A DNA stretch of 64,000 nt from Prochlorococcus sp. MIT 1223 (GTDB lineage Bacteria; Cyanobacteriota; Cyanobacteriia; PCC-6307; Cyanobiaceae). Location of the stretch: NCBI RefSeq assembly GCF_034092465.1, contig NZ_CP139303.1, forward strand, positions 124,001 through 188,000. The letters are read 5' to 3'. Of the stretch, positions 19,755 through 26,500 are shown one piece after another (position 1 is the stretch's first letter; every line of letters starts with the position of its first letter). The position numbers were made by a program, and so were the translations under genes. Below the pieces are notes generated by a model that had not been told where the DNA came from, ran no database searches, and saw nothing but the letters and a program-made list of their open reading frames with translations.

Positions 19755-20861
19755 TTGTCCCAACAAATCAAATGTATCCGCTGTGGTGCACCCATTCAGT
19801 GGACTACCTCTCAAGCAAAATGTGAGTTTTGTGGACAGCCAATCGTACGAACTCGTCAATCTTTAAGAGACGTTAGAAATGTTCTAGATCAAATCAACAA
19901 CGGTTTCAGGCAAGTTCCTCTTCCTTCTAAGAAAAAGCTTTTAGCTCAAGGAAAAATCCTTTTTGAAAAGCAGAACATTCTCTCTGATAAACAATTGAAA
20001 GTTGTAGGGAAATTTGTAGGGAAAGTTTTTCGTCGAAAAAGGAATATTTTTCTATTCATGGCAATACCCATCAGTGTTTGGGGTTACTTCAAAATTAATT
20101 ATCCACAAACTGCTAAACCTTACTATCCAGATTTTCCTTACAAAATGCCATCTCCTGAAGAGACCGGAGACTTTGTTTTATATGGCAGGGAGGACACTAA
20201 AGAAGGGATAGCTAGCTTGAGGTTTTGGTGCCCACGATGGAGAAAAAACCAATCTCTATCCAAGTGCATTGAAGAAAACTCCCAGAAGAAAAGATGGGTT
20301 GATATTGGCTCAAAGAAAAAATATAACGACTGGTTTGTGGTGAAGTTGGCTTCCTCAATCAGAGATGGGCAGACGCCTTCTACTTTGAACCACAATGATG
20401 CTGCGGTTCAATGCAAGAAAGGGTTAATCGCTTATTACCAAAATGGTGGACTAGATAAGTTCTATGAAATGCAATCACAATTTCCTTCTCAGTTTGGTTA
20501 TGAGGAAAAAGAGCAGTATGAAAGGCGAAAACCTCTTTCAGTACAAAGAAAAATGGGAAAACTTTGGTGGAGTTCAGGCGATGTTGATAGTGACCTGGAA
20601 AGTGGGAAATATTTAGCGTGGCATAGAAATAATCTCAGCAATTACGAAGAACGCCTTAGAGAAGTGTCTGATAAGAATTATTGTCCGTTTCGGGAGGGTT
20701 TTAAACACAAGTGCAAAAATCCCAAGCATCGTTTAGAAAGTATAAATACAATAAAATCTCTTCTTAAAAGTTCCAAGGAATCTCTTGCCTTAAGGAAATT
20801 ATGGAGAAAGGAACATGCTGTAAATTATGAGGTCTTATTGAGAAAAGTCTGCAAGAGCTGA
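19755..20861 (+). CDS. Zinc-ribbon single-span membrane protein
   Basis: A 368-residue protein of unknown function. An N-terminal zinc ribbon has cysteines at residues 7, 10, 23 and 26 (CIRCG...CEFCG). A basic linker leads to one membrane span (about residues 96-113, IFLFMAIPISVWGYF), and a 250-residue cysteine-containing domain follows. By the positive-inside rule the ribbon should be cytoplasmic and the large domain periplasmic or lumenal. The same ribbon-linker-span architecture recurs in the last gene of this cluster (23992-25800). The start is a TTG 70 bp after the acidic mini-gene. All five genes to 25800 run the same way. Confidence 0.75.
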   Translation: MSQQIKCIRCGAPIQWTTSQAKCEFCGQPIVRTRQSLRDVRNVLDQINNGFRQVPLPSKKKLLAQGKILFEKQNILSDKQLKVVGKFVGKVFRRKRNIFLFMAIPISVWGYFKINYPQTAKPYYPDFPYKMPSPEETGDFVLYGREDTKEGIASLRFWCPRWRKNQSLSKCIEENSQKKRWVDIGSKKKYNDWFVVKLASSIRDGQTPSTLNHNDAAVQCKKGLIAYYQNGGLDKFYEMQSQFPSQFGYEEKEQYERRKPLSVQRKMGKLWWSSGDVDSDLESGKYLAWHRNNLSNYEERLREVSDKNYCPFREGFKHKCKNPKHRLESINTIKSLLKSSKESLALRKLWRKEHAVNYEVLLRKVCKS

Positions 20862-20981
20862 AACTAAAACAGTACAGGTTACCTTCAGTCCAGGACGCTC
20901 TTCTTTATTTTGTGGGATAATAACTTTAGAAGATGATTGGTTTTGACAAAGAAAATAACTAGGAAAACATCATTGACTCTT

Positions 20982-22214
20982 ATGACTTTGAAGAAACTCA
21001 TAACTGGATTCTCAACATTATCTTTGCTGGGATGTTCAACTCTATTGCCAGCTAAATCTGAATCACCTAGCGAGCTCTATAAGAACAAATCTGATTGTAT
21101 AGAGAGTCCTGAGTTTGTTACACCTAAATCTGGAGCCTACAAATATTGCATAAAACCTGATGGAGCCATACAAAAAATAGATATCTATGGGGTCGTTACA
21201 GAGGAGGAAGGAAAGCTTGATGCGCTAGTAGAAAACAAGATTAAGAAAGGAGGATTTAGTAGAACTAGCGTCGATAGTTTGTCTGAATTTAAAATCGAAG
21301 GAAATGAGTTGATCGAATATCGATGCAAAGCAAAGAAAGTAAACAAAGAAATTCAATGCGATGGGGCTAGCGAGAGAAGGACCAAAGGTGTAAGACCTAA
21401 AGGTTATTACTTGGCCAAAGGTTTAATTGAAATCGAGGATAAAAACTGGAAGGAATCAATTAAATATTTTGATGATGAGCTTGATTTGAAAAAAAATGTT
21501 GAAGCTTATTACTATCGAGCTTTCTCTAAATTAATGCTAGACGATTTCAAAGGAGTCATCAAGGATGCAGATTTAGCCTTGAAAATAGATTCAAATTATC
21601 TTAAAGCTTTTAATGTTAGAAGTATAGCTAAATTTGAGTTAAAAGATTTCAAAGGAGCGATTAGTGATTTAGATAGATTAACGACTTTATATGAGGCTTT
21701 AACTTCTAAGGAGATAGAACAACTTGAGATTGAAGATACTAATGAAACATTCGACAAGTTTTACTTTAGACGCGGGTTAGCAAAAAGTGAGACTGGCGAT
21801 AGTGAAGCTGCAAAAGCAGATTTTATTAAAGAAATAGATCTTAATCCTCTTTTTGGACAAGCATATTTCCAAAAAGGTTTGGAGCAATATTGGACAAATA
21901 GAGATGCTGCTTGTAATGATTTACTCAAAGGTATTTCACTAGGAGCTCGCGATACAAGTGACTCATTTGTAAATCAAAAAGGAAATTCTGAATCATTCTT
22001 GGATGAACTTTTCGATAATGAAATCACTTTAACTAAAGCTTGTAAGGATTCCAGTGCTAAGAAAGTAGATCTCAATAAACAAAATTATGAGACAGAGAAT
22101 TTAATTGAAAAAGCATATCAGTTAGGACTCAAGTATATTTTATTAGTTCCGATATTTCTTGTGATTATTATTTCAATCATCATTAAATATGCAGGCAAGA
22201 ATGATAGTGAATAG
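20982..22214 (+). CDS. TPR protein with signal peptide and C-terminal membrane anchor
   Basis: A protein of about 410 residues. The ATG at 20982 starts directly on a signal sequence (TLKKLITGFSTLSLLGCS) whose LLGCS could be a lipobox; a TTG at 20937 would add 15 residues in front. The middle contains tetratricopeptide-like repeats (AYYYRAFSKLMLDDFKGVIKD, AFNVRSIAKFELKDFKGAISD, FYFRRGLAKSETGDSEAAKAD). A C-terminal hydrophobic helix (ILLVPIFLVIIISIIIK) is followed by a short tail. It is probably an envelope scaffold. The TPR call is from the repeat pattern; the partner is unknown but likely encoded next door. Confidence 0.75.
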   Translation: MTLKKLITGFSTLSLLGCSTLLPAKSESPSELYKNKSDCIESPEFVTPKSGAYKYCIKPDGAIQKIDIYGVVTEEEGKLDALVENKIKKGGFSRTSVDSLSEFKIEGNELIEYRCKAKKVNKEIQCDGASERRTKGVRPKGYYLAKGLIEIEDKNWKESIKYFDDELDLKKNVEAYYYRAFSKLMLDDFKGVIKDADLALKIDSNYLKAFNVRSIAKFELKDFKGAISDLDRLTTLYEALTSKEIEQLEIEDTNETFDKFYFRRGLAKSETGDSEAAKADFIKEIDLNPLFGQAYFQKGLEQYWTNRDAACNDLLKGISLGARDTSDSFVNQKGNSESFLDELFDNEITLTKACKDSSAKKVDLNKQNYETENLIEKAYQLGLKYILLVPIFLVIIISIIIKYAGKNDSE

Positions 22215-22294
22215 TTATTTAATTTTGAAGAAAAATTTATGCTTTAAACATCATTTAATCATGATGGTAAACTCATAAAGATTTAAAGAAGACC

Positions 22295-23263
22295 TTGGCC
22301 GTTACAACAATAGAAAGTAAGGCAACCAATGATTCGCTGGTATGGTGTCATCCTAATAGAGATATCGTCATAGGCTCTCAGATACTTGTAAATGAAAGCG
22401 AAGAGGCGTTGCTTTTTGAAAATGGACAGCTTGTACAGATTCTTCAAGCAGGCAAGCATTTAATTGAATCAGGAAACATACCTGGATTAGATGCACTTAT
22501 AAGAAGATCTATTGGTAATAACTCTCCAATTAAGCTTGATGTTTGGTTTGTCAGTAAAACTTCTTCCACTGACTATAAGTGGGGTGTTCAGTTACAAGCT
22601 AAAGATACGACGCATCAACTCATTGTTCCTGTTGGTTCATATGGCTCGATGTTATTGAGGATTCAAGACCCTGCATCTTTTGTCGTTCAGGTTGTTGGAA
22701 AGAAAATGTCTATGACTAAGCAAGAGTTGAAAGACTTTCTTGTCCCAAATATTGAGAGAAGCCTCAAAGACTACATTGCAGACAAAATTAAGAAAGGAAC
22801 CCTCGATATATTCACAATCGAATCCATTTTGGAGGAGGCTTCAGCAGATACAAAGAAATCTATCGATCGATCGTTTGAACGGTTTGGGTTAAAGCTTCTA
22901 GATTTCTTTATTCAAGGAATCGAAGTCATTGGAGATAACCCCGAATATATAAAGATCAAAGAGAGTCTTGCAGATGCTGCCAGTTTGAGAATTAGAGCAA
23001 AGGCAGCTTCAGAATCACAAGGTTTCTATCAACAAGAACGAGCGCTTGATGCCCTTAATAAAGCTGCAGAAAAAGATTCAAATGTTGCAGGCAAATTAAT
23101 GTCAGAAGGTCTGGGGAGAATTAACTTTGGAGGTAAAACAAAAACTGAATCAGCTGGAGACTTAAAGATGAAACTAAGCTCATTAAAGGATCTGTATGAC
23201 GAGGGGCTCATCTCTGAAAAAGAGTATGAAAAGAAAAAACAGGACTTATTAGGACAAATTTAG
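22295..23263 (+). CDS. SPFH-domain protein with C-terminal SHOCT motif (YdjI/COG4260-like)
   Basis: A 322-residue protein. Residues 1 to about 225 match the stomatin/prohibitin-like COG4260 pattern: IVIGSQILVNESEEALLFENGQ, GKHLIESGNIPGLDAL, NNSPIKLDVWFV, VPVGSYGSMLLRIQDPASFV. The C terminus is a SHOCT motif (LKDLYDEGLISEKEYEKKK). Bacillus YdjI and related proteins carry a C-terminal zinc ribbon and act with PspA at stressed membranes; here the ribbon is on separate neighbouring proteins. SPFH proteins form membrane-associated oligomeric cages. The start is a TTG. The domain call is good; the membrane-stress role is inferred. Confidence 0.82.
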   Translation: MAVTTIESKATNDSLVWCHPNRDIVIGSQILVNESEEALLFENGQLVQILQAGKHLIESGNIPGLDALIRRSIGNNSPIKLDVWFVSKTSSTDYKWGVQLQAKDTTHQLIVPVGSYGSMLLRIQDPASFVVQVVGKKMSMTKQELKDFLVPNIERSLKDYIADKIKKGTLDIFTIESILEEASADTKKSIDRSFERFGLKLLDFFIQGIEVIGDNPEYIKIKESLADAASLRIRAKAASESQGFYQQERALDALNKAAEKDSNVAGKLMSEGLGRINFGGKTKTESAGDLKMKLSSLKDLYDEGLISEKEYEKKKQDLLGQI

Positions 23264-23296
23264 GATTCACATGACCAATTCCATTACTAGAAAACT

Positions 23297-23995
23297 ATGA
23301 GATTGAAAACGGCACTTCCAATTTTATGGCTCCCATTAATTGGAGTATGGTCATTTCTCCTTTCTGTTCAACTCAATAAGACATCTACAGAATTAGAGAG
23401 CATTGTTCCACTGATTAGTTATATACTGGTTTCATTCCTGTTGGTATTGCAATTACAGCTAGTTATTGGGAACAAAAGAGAAGTCGCAATAGTTAAGCTT
23501 GGAACGGCAAATGTCTTGTTGACATGTTTAGTTGTAGCAACAACTTCAATACTTTTAAATCTGTTTAATGCTATTCAAAATGAATTATCTGTAGGGATAG
23601 TTGTTTCATCCTTAATTGTCAATACTATTCTGGCTGAAATTTTCTCTGCATCAAGTAAACAGGTTATTAAACAAAAAGATAAACTAGTTAAAAAGAAAGA
23701 GGCTTGGGTTCAAACCAATCGTGAAATAGAAGAAAAACAAATCAATGCTTCAGAAGAAAAGGCAAGAAAGAGAAACTCTAGTCTGAGATATAGACAGGAA
23801 TGGAAAAAATATCTTAAACAGGCATCAATTGATTATTTAGATAATAAAGAGATTATAGAAGAAATAACAAGAATAAAAGAAATAGTTGAATTCAGTTCTT
23901 ACTTTAGAGAATCTTCTTGTATGCTAATGTTATCTAAGCTTCAATCTTCTTTAGACCCAGATCAAGTTATAATTATATTAGCAGAAGTAAAATGA
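23297..23995 (+). CDS. Four-span membrane protein with coiled-coil tail
   Basis: A 232-residue protein with four predicted spans (about residues 8-26, 35-58, 66-88 and 96-117). A highly charged helical tail (KQVIKQKDKLVKKKEAW onward, to about residue 165) looks like a coiled coil, and a short helical end follows. No family recognised. It lies 33 bp after the SPFH gene and overlaps the next gene by 4 bp (ATGA), so it is clearly part of the same transcription unit. Confidence 0.7.
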   Translation: MRLKTALPILWLPLIGVWSFLLSVQLNKTSTELESIVPLISYILVSFLLVLQLQLVIGNKREVAIVKLGTANVLLTCLVVATTSILLNLFNAIQNELSVGIVVSSLIVNTILAEIFSASSKQVIKQKDKLVKKKEAWVQTNREIEEKQINASEEKARKRNSSLRYRQEWKKYLKQASIDYLDNKEIIEEITRIKEIVEFSSYFRESSCMLMLSKLQSSLDPDQVIIILAEVK

Positions 23996-25800
23996 ATATT
24001 AGATCCTCAAATAAATGCAACTACTGTGGAGCACCTGTCCCTTATAGTTCAATTAAATGTAATTTCTGTGGTCAAAGGATTCAAAAGGGTATAAGATCTA
24101 GCTTAAGATTGAATAGAGAAGATTTTGAAATAAAAAATATAAAGTCTAATTTTTATTTGATAACAAGAAATTTATCGAAAAGTACTAATAAATTAAAAAA
24201 TAGAAGTATTCTGTTATTAAATAAAATACAACTGTATGGAGGAGACAAGCTTGAGAATTTAAATAAACTAATTAGAAAAGAGTTAAAGAGTGAAAGAACT
24301 AAGAAAATAATACCTTACCTACCCCTTGGAATAGTTGTTTTATTGTCTTTATCTATCTCTTCCAGTTTAATTGTAAAGCATACTAGAAAGAAAGAAGCTG
24401 AATATTTATTTAACGAAGGACTCAAGGCGCTGAACTCGAATTCATATTCCTCGGCAAAAGAATACTTTGAGAGTGCATTAGAAATCTCACCAAAAGATCA
24501 TCGATTATATTTTAATCTTGGCTTAGCTAATGGTAAATTATTCAAACATAGATCAGCAGTTGAGAATTTTAGTAAAACAATTGAACTAGCTCCTAAATCT
24601 TATATTGAAAGAAAAATTGTTTACTTTGAGAGAGGTAATGCTAATTATGGGATGCGTAATTATTCCCAAGCAATCTCTGACTATCGTATATATAAAGTAC
24701 AAAGAGACACTGCTGCAGTTAATTATAATCTATGTATTGCTAATTATAACTTAGGTAATTATAGTCAATCAATATTAGATTGCTCTAGGTCAATAGAGCT
24801 TAATATTAGAGGAGGTGATGCATATTATATGAGAGCACGATCTAAATTGTTAAGAGCTCGTAAAAAATATACTCCTAATGCTTTATTAGATAAAAAAGGA
24901 TATTGTGATGATATTGATAAATCTGTAAAACTTGGTACTAAAATTACTTTTTCTAAAGATAAGAATTACAAGGTTTTTTGTAGTAAGTTAGAACAAGAGA
25001 TCTTATCTAATCAAAAAAAAGTAAGAGAAAAACAAAAAGAAAGGAAAAGAAAAGAAAAAGAAGAGAAACTACCGAAAGAGGCAAAGTATTATTTAGATAG
25101 ATTAAAAGAAACACATGGAAACCGTAAAGATTGCTCTGATACTATTCGTCTTTCTAACTTGTTAATTCCAGAATATAATTCAGATACTTCTTATTATTAT
25201 AGAGCCAAAGGTAACTTCCTATGTGGTAATTACCTTTCTTCTATTAGTGATTATTCTAAAGCGATTGAACTAGATTCTGACAATGTGGAATATTACAAGG
25301 GAAGAGCATCTGCTAGGAGTATGTCCAACGATTTTAAGGGCGCTGTTGATGACTATACTAAGGCAATAAATATATTGCCAGACTTTGGCCTCTATCAATC
25401 GAGAGGAAAAGCATATTATAAATTATCTACATATGCAGCAGCTATTTCTGATTTTAAGAAATCAATTTTAATTAAAAAACCCAAAGATAGTACTTCTCAG
25501 TCTTATTATTGGCTAGGTCAAATTAATTTTAATTTAGGTAAATATATTGATGCAATTGATTATTTGAATAAAGCGATTAAATTACGAAGATATAACTGGC
25601 CATTATATGCCCTTAGAGGGAATTCTAAATATATGATCAAAGATTATAGTGCAGCTTGTTCTGATTGGGTTCTCTACGCCAAGAAAAGTCACTCCAAAAG
25701 CTATTACGCAAAACCTAACTTAAATAGACTGAAAAGTCTAAAGAAATTGCCCGGTAATTCAGAAAGTATCGATGAGTTGTATCGTAGAAGTTGTACATAA
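23992..25800 (+). CDS. Zinc-ribbon single-span TPR protein
   Basis: A 602-residue protein. The N-terminal zinc ribbon has cysteines at residues 9, 12, 23 and 26 (CNYCG...CNFCG) with the spacing of the first gene of the cluster. A basic linker, one membrane span (about 104-126, LGIVVLLSLSISSSLIV) and two blocks of tetratricopeptide repeats follow, separated by a Lys/Glu helix (about 345-372). Examples of repeat units are AEYLFNEGLKALNSNSYSSAKEY-type and YYWLGQINFNLGKYIDAIDY. The TPR part should face the periplasm or lumen. The substrate or partner is unknown. The gene ends the co-directional cluster. Confidence 0.78.
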   Translation: MNIRSSNKCNYCGAPVPYSSIKCNFCGQRIQKGIRSSLRLNREDFEIKNIKSNFYLITRNLSKSTNKLKNRSILLLNKIQLYGGDKLENLNKLIRKELKSERTKKIIPYLPLGIVVLLSLSISSSLIVKHTRKKEAEYLFNEGLKALNSNSYSSAKEYFESALEISPKDHRLYFNLGLANGKLFKHRSAVENFSKTIELAPKSYIERKIVYFERGNANYGMRNYSQAISDYRIYKVQRDTAAVNYNLCIANYNLGNYSQSILDCSRSIELNIRGGDAYYMRARSKLLRARKKYTPNALLDKKGYCDDIDKSVKLGTKITFSKDKNYKVFCSKLEQEILSNQKKVREKQKERKRKEKEEKLPKEAKYYLDRLKETHGNRKDCSDTIRLSNLLIPEYNSDTSYYYRAKGNFLCGNYLSSISDYSKAIELDSDNVEYYKGRASARSMSNDFKGAVDDYTKAINILPDFGLYQSRGKAYYKLSTYAAAISDFKKSILIKKPKDSTSQSYYWLGQINFNLGKYIDAIDYLNKAIKLRRYNWPLYALRGNSKYMIKDYSAACSDWVLYAKKSHSKSYYAKPNLNRLKSLKKLPGNSESIDELYRRSCT

Positions 25801-25843: not shown

Positions 25844-26500
25844 TTATTTCTGCAAACAAAACATTTTATAGTAAGCATCTTTAATCTTTCCTTTAGTACT
25901 TCCAAACCTCAGGCCAGACCTTAGAGCTAATGCTCTGTTCTCTCCTGCTCCGTGATGTTGAACATGATCATATTCTTTATCTCCAAGTAATGCCGCTGCT
26001 AAAATCATATTTTCAACATCCTTTTTGTTGAAAGATAGGTTTGGAATACTTGCGAGAATTACTCCAGCGAAACAATCTGCCTGTAATTCTATTCTCATTG
26101 TGTTGTTTTTTGCCCTGGCTACTAGTTGCGCCTGTGCAAATTGAACGTGGTGGGCATATTCATGGGCGACAACAAAGGCAACAGCCGCATCTCCTATCTT
26201 TGCTAGGTCATTCATGAAGTTCTTTTCAAAGCAGATGAGGCCTGAGCTTGGGCTGTAATAAGTGTCATCGCACCAGGTCCATTTGATTTCTTTTGCGTTT
26301 GCCCTTTTACCCATCGTCTTAGAAGCACCAGTAAGTACGACTTCAATCAATGATTCGACACCCTCTGTCAAATCTAAAGCTGCTTTTGCTGGTGTAGATC
26401 CAAGTAAAAGTAGTGAATATAGCAATGATGCTGAAATTATTTGTTTGATCACAATTTCTGCTAGGTCAGAATAAATTCTGACATAAATTTCCGTGTCCAT
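25844..26500 (-). CDS. Secreted zinc metallopeptidase-like protein
   Basis: A 218-residue protein. A signal-peptide core (IISASLLYSLLLLGSTPAKA) ends near residue 40. An HEXXH zinc motif (VVAHEYAHHVQ) is followed by a third-ligand-type glutamate in RIELQADCFAGVI, the arrangement of the YpfJ-type neutral zinc metallopeptidases (PF04228). A conserved H-x-GxGENRALALRSG segment follows. It should act in the envelope. It faces the zinc-ribbon/SPFH cluster convergently. The likely start may be an internal residue nearer the signal sequence, since the first 15 residues are polar. Confidence 0.78.
   Translation of the reverse strand: MDTEIYVRIYSDLAEIVIKQIISASLLYSLLLLGSTPAKAALDLTEGVESLIEVVLTGASKTMGKRANAKEIKWTWCDDTYYSPSSGLICFEKNFMNDLAKIGDAAVAFVVAHEYAHHVQFAQAQLVARAKNNTMRIELQADCFAGVILASIPNLSFNKKDVENMILAAALLGDKEYDHVQHHGAGENRALALRSGLRFGSTKGKIKDAYYKMFCLQK

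Follow-up and report, generated by a model that had tools for sequence, protein, structure and literature searches.

A conserved SPFH-centered gene cluster in Prochlorococcus with membrane proteins that exchange their tails behind a zinc-ribbon module

Analysis of a 64,000-nt window, the whole stretch of DNA considered here, from Prochlorococcus sp. MIT 1223 (source genome of 1.796 Mb, one contig, 100% complete) identified a conserved core of three genes, B, C and D, built around an SPFH protein and accompanied by a multi-copy family of membrane proteins in which C-terminal parts are exchangeable. Members of this family, represented in the window by A and E, share an N-terminal module composed of a zinc ribbon, a basic linker and a single span. 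The architecture, in terms of gene content, gene order and co-occurrence, is well supported. A search of the literature found no paper on the B-C-D/ribbon cluster, and as far as our tools show, the family of C is already known and the exchangeable set of ribbon-addressed partners is undescribed.

Organization of the gene cluster

A sequence-only reading of the window had described five consecutive plus-strand genes, A to E, and all five open reading frames are present at the positions it gave. A sixth gene of the set, F, was absent from that reading and encodes a protein with an apparent signal peptide. The start of E and the end of D overlap by 4 bases. The features are as follows:

19755..20861, plus strand: gene A, a ribbon-linker-span protein with an extracytoplasmic payload domain at about 20103-20858
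19773..19835, plus strand: zinc ribbon of A, C-X2-C-G-A-P-I...C-E-F-C-G, read directly, with columns invariant in the family alignment
20046..20102, plus strand: single span of A, weakly hydrophobic (mean 1.28), with RRKRN just before it
20937..22214, plus strand: gene B, with a signal peptide, a small Cys-containing N-domain, TPRs and a C-terminal span at about 22134-22187
22295..23263, plus strand: gene C, with SPFH (Band_7_1) at about 22355-22927 and SHOCT at about 23174-23251
23297..23995, plus strand: gene D, with four spans, helix 4 extended as a long stalk and then a small helical domain
23992..25800, plus strand: gene E, with a ribbon at about 24016-24069, a span at about 24319-24375 and a long TPR tail
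25844..26500, minus strand: gene F, a secreted metallopeptidase (PF04228, HExxH-type), convergent with E

The view of these genes as a five-gene set stood in part. B, C and D are kept together, but A and E represent a variable family and are not parts of a fixed five-gene unit. The ribbon proteins vary by locus in number and in C-terminal content, the TPR tail being one payload among several.

The B-C-D core and peptidase F

The B-C-D order is kept in 12 Prochlorococcus loci, one of them in the window, where B and C lie about 80 bases apart in most cases and C and D about 25-45 bases apart; since the order recurs in 12 loci, the arrangement is not due to chance, and the expectation that an SPFH-centered membrane cluster would be conserved in relatives was borne out. 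The pairwise identities measured for B, C and D are strongly correlated with one another (Spearman 0.89-0.93, 21 pairs), as expected under joint inheritance. The named carriers of the SPFH gene nearest to the window are Prochlorococcus single-cell genomes, and the B-C-D set was not seen in the distant Chloroflexi and Elusimicrobia loci.

Gene C matched Band_7_1 in Pfam (4.4e-28, 98.8 bits versus a cut-off of 24) as well as SHOCT (1.2e-07), and hydropathy scans showed no transmembrane span in its orthologues. The PF13421 family is common to gene C and B. subtilis. The C terminus of C consists of SHOCT without a CxxC pair, a YdjI-like zinc finger being absent and ribbons being carried on partner proteins instead. 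The C-terminal zinc finger is a trait of YdjI and is not defining for the PF13421/COG4260 family. A profile search of solved structures with the SPFH relatives gave nothing useful.

The D orthologues are four-span proteins in the hydropathy scan, and the AlphaFold model of D (mean pLDDT 87) contains four N-terminal helices, of which helix 4 extends as a stalk over residues 95-179. Among 251 family genomes, D was limited to the 11 genomes with a close or divergent SPFH gene, plus G073, in which the contig ends just beyond D. Orthologues of F (E <= 1e-88) were found in seven of the 251 genomes, each with D, and the best F match in any other genome was 1e-10. B is conserved in the 12 loci with six conserved cysteines after the signal peptide, and its TPRs matched Pfam below threshold (5e-06). 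An LLGC motif in the window copy raised the possibility of a lipoprotein, which was dropped as that cysteine is not conserved. In L029 (10507-12141) and L030 (10354-12054), B is longer and has a C-type-lectin-like insertion between the TPRs, with a Lectin_C match of 2e-05 in the L029 protein.

A divergent and simpler form of the cluster was observed at L032:7584-10482, L082:2985-5788 and L083:8959-11830. It contains a divergent SPFH protein, a D-like protein with 3-4 spans, a one-span protein of 219-240 aa and a ribbon protein of 125-129 aa without a span.

A shared N-terminal module with exchangeable tails

Direct reading of the two ribbons confirmed the cysteine spacing reported earlier, C-X2-C-X12-C-X2-C in A and C-X2-C-X10-C-X2-C in E, both ribbons lying below Pfam cut-offs. 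The four cysteines and a C-G-A motif are invariant in 16 of 16 family members (A, E and 14 relatives). The proposed homology of A and E in their membrane halves holds for the ribbons, but outside the ribbons the similarity is weak (10.4 bits, reached by 4 of 1000 shuffles), and E-type linkers are barely recognizable as kin of A-type linkers. Mean within-locus identity decreases from 49% in the ribbon to 31% in the linker and span and 18% in the tail. The source genome has a third ribbon member at C1:438978, outside the window. A recombinase-like gene with a weak Phage_integrase match lies directly upstream of it (L107:5674-8207, corresponding to G000:C1 ~437674-440207).

Tails are exchanged behind the conserved module. 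The ribbon proteins L077 2517 and L078 11374 are 83% identical over residues 1-87, with 85.7% DNA identity over 237 bases, whereas beyond the module their tails are unrelated, M48 in the former and TPR in the latter. Neighboring ribbon genes in L027 (79%) and in L080 (83%) show DNA identity only over the first ~380 bases, to the end of the span. The tails found across the loci include TPR arrays (in E, a Pfam match of 2e-33 with 8 stretches), Trypsin_2 with TPR (L029), Peptidase_M48 (L077), DUF3721 (L028), a repeated domain (L026, L034 and L109), an A-type domain (the window, L025, L028 and L080) and unassigned regions.

The A payload was present in 3 of 400 family genomes, and full-length relatives of A in L025, L028 and L080 are 38-49% identical to it. 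Its structure was predicted confidently (pLDDT ~85). No Foldseek match was obtained at E<=0.001, and VIA matches had Z <= 6.4, mostly over the helical end, leaving no fold assigned. A PADLOC hit to CARF4 in A (6e-4) falls in a region that is largely helix and probably arose by chance.

Topology of the ribbon proteins

The ribbons had been placed in the cytoplasm and the TPR parts outside, a placement that is probably correct given the parity of tail cysteines and the charge bias around the span. An even number of cysteines was counted in 29 of 29 full-length tails, compared with 53 of 93 other span-less ORFs of the same loci; these 29 tails form eight sequence clusters and so are not 29 independent cases, and the count left out one atypical ribbon protein (L031) and two fragments. 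Within the A family, two cysteines were lost together in L028. The even count suggests that the tails probably fold outside the cytoplasm. The flanking charges of the ribbon proteins (K+R 124 and D+E 20 before the span, K+R 82 and D+E 58 after it) likewise favor a ribbon-in, tail-out orientation, and this topology is strongly indicated. The evidence does not favor the thylakoid over the plasma membrane as the location.

Co-occurrence across genomes

The SPFH gene was found among the 251 family genomes in its close form in nine and in its divergent form in two (G010 and G178), with more distant SPFH-family members in other genomes of the 251. C occurs with D in 11 of 11 genomes (p 2e-18), close-type C occurs with the ribbon module in 9 of 9 (Fisher p 2e-13), and close F orthologues are limited to D-bearing genomes (p 7e-11). 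All three values refer to the 251 genomes, which are related, with shared ancestry uncorrected, and the profile used to find ribbons was seeded with ribbon genes of these very loci. The module was present in 14 of the 251 genomes, comprising the nine with the close SPFH gene and five others; it is weak in G058 and G223 and stop-broken in G058. Among the five module genomes lacking the close SPFH gene, G073 also contains D and F, located where its contig ends, the ribbon gene of G078 is a remnant interrupted by three stops, and completeness is no more than 53-64% in G033, G144 and G236. Ribbon genes that are decayed or lie apart from the core also occur.

These distributions bear on an explanation in which mobile islands that happened to settle next to the SPFH core carry the ribbon genes as passengers, the module being a mere anchor that makes no contact with C or D and is kept through duplication and recombination. 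Consistent with such passengers, ribbon genes repeatedly have Phage_integrase-type recombinase, DnaB-like, SNase and HTH genes in their vicinity, the third ribbon copy of the source genome adjoins a recombinase (L107), and the remnant in G078 stands without the core. However, the near-perfect co-occurrence includes unlinked copies, the divergent SPFH form is also accompanied by a small ribbon protein, and in B. subtilis ribbon and SPFH proteins act in one complex (PMC8581546, PMC9239133). On this balance, we regard the passenger explanation as unlikely.

A candidate membrane hub and its relation to known systems

We consider it about an even bet that the cluster encodes a Ydj-like SPFH hub at the membrane with plug-in ribbon partners that dock exported payloads. 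C would form an SPFH oligomer at the cytoplasmic face of the membrane. As it lacks a span, D would keep it in place, with the long helical stalk of D predicted to be directed into the cytoplasm. B would act as an outside TPR protein with a C-terminal anchor and F as a soluble outside peptidase. The cytoplasmic ribbons of A, E and their relatives would dock on the C-D hub with the module as a standard plug, and docking would gather the varied outside parts at one place on the outer side. As the ribbon module is the only part common to the payload proteins, it would be what the hub recognizes. Such an assembly would likely serve to fold, capture and degrade envelope proteins locally, with payload swapping by gene transfer tuning the system to strain or niche. 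The protease and TPR payloads, together with peptidase F, suggest envelope protein quality control, which is probably the function; since the A payload has no recognizable fold, this reading draws on the protease and TPR payloads.

In B. subtilis, membrane localization of YdjI, a soluble and span-less SPFH protein, needs the membrane proteins YdjG and YdjH, of which YdjH binds YdjI (PMC8581546) and YdjG has a zinc ribbon (PMC9239133). If the comparison holds, C would be kept at the membrane by D or by the ribbon proteins. In the divergent form (L032, L082, L083), too, the SPFH protein is found together with a small ribbon protein and a protein resembling D. Docking of the ribbon on the SPFH protein is plausible by this comparison; however, the contact reported in B. 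subtilis is between YdjH and YdjI and not between the ribbon protein YdjG and YdjI (PMC8581546). It is possible, and here our confidence is lower, that the ribbon-linker-span serves as a general plug, an N-terminal address that can be moved from protein to protein and directs any extracytoplasmic partner, even a protease, to one SPFH microdomain, with payloads exchanged by horizontal transfer, which would make it a modular membrane platform not described before.

The B. subtilis PspA-YdjG-YdjH-YdjI system resembles the cluster in combining a soluble PF13421 SPFH protein with membrane partners, one of which has a zinc ribbon. The Prochlorococcus cluster differs in containing no PspA, in having SHOCT on C in place of the C-terminal zinc finger of YdjI, in its multi-copy ribbon proteins with large exchangeable outside domains and in the additional TPR protein B and peptidase F. 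HflK/HflC, prohibitin and stomatin assemblies organize membrane proteases and are similar in associating an SPFH scaffold with proteolysis. In contrast to these assemblies, C has no N-terminal span, and the proteases here are extracytoplasmic, joined to the ribbon module and not FtsH-type. The N-terminal membrane anchor of classical flotillins (FloA/FloT) is also absent from C.

PspA lies outside the B-C-D/ribbon system. The absence of PspA from the neighborhood, reported earlier, was confirmed by locating the sole PspA_IM30 gene of the source genome elsewhere in the chromosome at C1:1672545, with the cluster at ~C1:143755-150500, ~0.27 Mb apart if the chromosome is circular. PspA_IM30 was not found in G115, G209 and G010, which share a genus and make up three of nine C-bearing genomes; the assemblies of G115 and G209 are, however, incomplete. 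A genuine membrane-stress system of the Psp type, with C bringing PspA/Vipp1 to membrane that has been damaged, would agree with the membership of C in the family of YdjI, which recruits PspA in B. subtilis (PMC8581546), but is highly improbable given the distant or missing PspA_IM30 gene. G010 is a 99%-complete single contig without a PspA_IM30/Vipp1 match, which is surprising for cyanobacteria.

More improbable still are ribbons that act as membrane-tethered, nucleic-acid-binding regulators with the outside parts as sensors. The YdjG ribbon has been read as a DNA-binding type (PMC9239133), and a gene that weakly matches sigma-70 region 4 (L075:3724-4140) has homologs near the cluster in two further loci (L077:1388-1813 and L080:3316-3732), making three loci in all. 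Nevertheless, the payloads include proteases and not sensor domains alone, and the linkers are not recognizable as DNA-binding domains.

Little is understood so far of what is recruited by SPFH proteins and by which means. The ribbon family presents an apparent natural swap experiment in which the membrane-targeting module is constant and the cargo is a protease, a TPR array or an unknown domain. Should the ribbon bind the SPFH hub in this way, a very abundant phototroph would offer a defined recruitment code for membrane domains in bacteria that can be put to the test, and perhaps a portable tag with which exported proteins could be placed.

Genomic context and mobility

C of the source genome is 79-83% identical to its counterparts in G209, G115, G052 and G026, which belong to other genera, compared with 64% identity to that of the same-genus G003. 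The order is reversed for the housekeeping gene pepN, with 59% identity to G003 and 54-57% to G115, G052 and G026; no pepN was found in G209. This reversal suggests that the B-C-D core moved between genera. The purK-pepN location is common to the window and L029. Tycheposons and genomic islands have been described in Prochlorococcus (PMC10872708), and the loci resemble them in having recombinase genes near variable cargo and, at some loci, a nearby tRNA gene. A tycheposon is bounded by a tRNA and has a tyrosine recombinase; recombinase homologues occur near some ribbon genes, and tRNA genes at some of the loci, with none in the window.

The island setting, together with patchy presence, intergenus transfer and exchangeable protease payloads, would also suit a role in biotic conflict with phages or competitors, in which a core with exchangeable payloads on mobile islands follows a constant-sensor, variable-effector logic. 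We judge this role quite unlikely: PADLOC gave only weak or partial hits among the six window proteins, none convincing, the payloads are apparently outside the cytoplasm, and no contig or record of a phage carried the SPFH gene. The loci also hold small SNase-like genes whose products have a signal peptide or lipobox, several of them directly beside ribbon genes (L027:15221-15610, L108:9616-10008, L110:9163-9555 and others).
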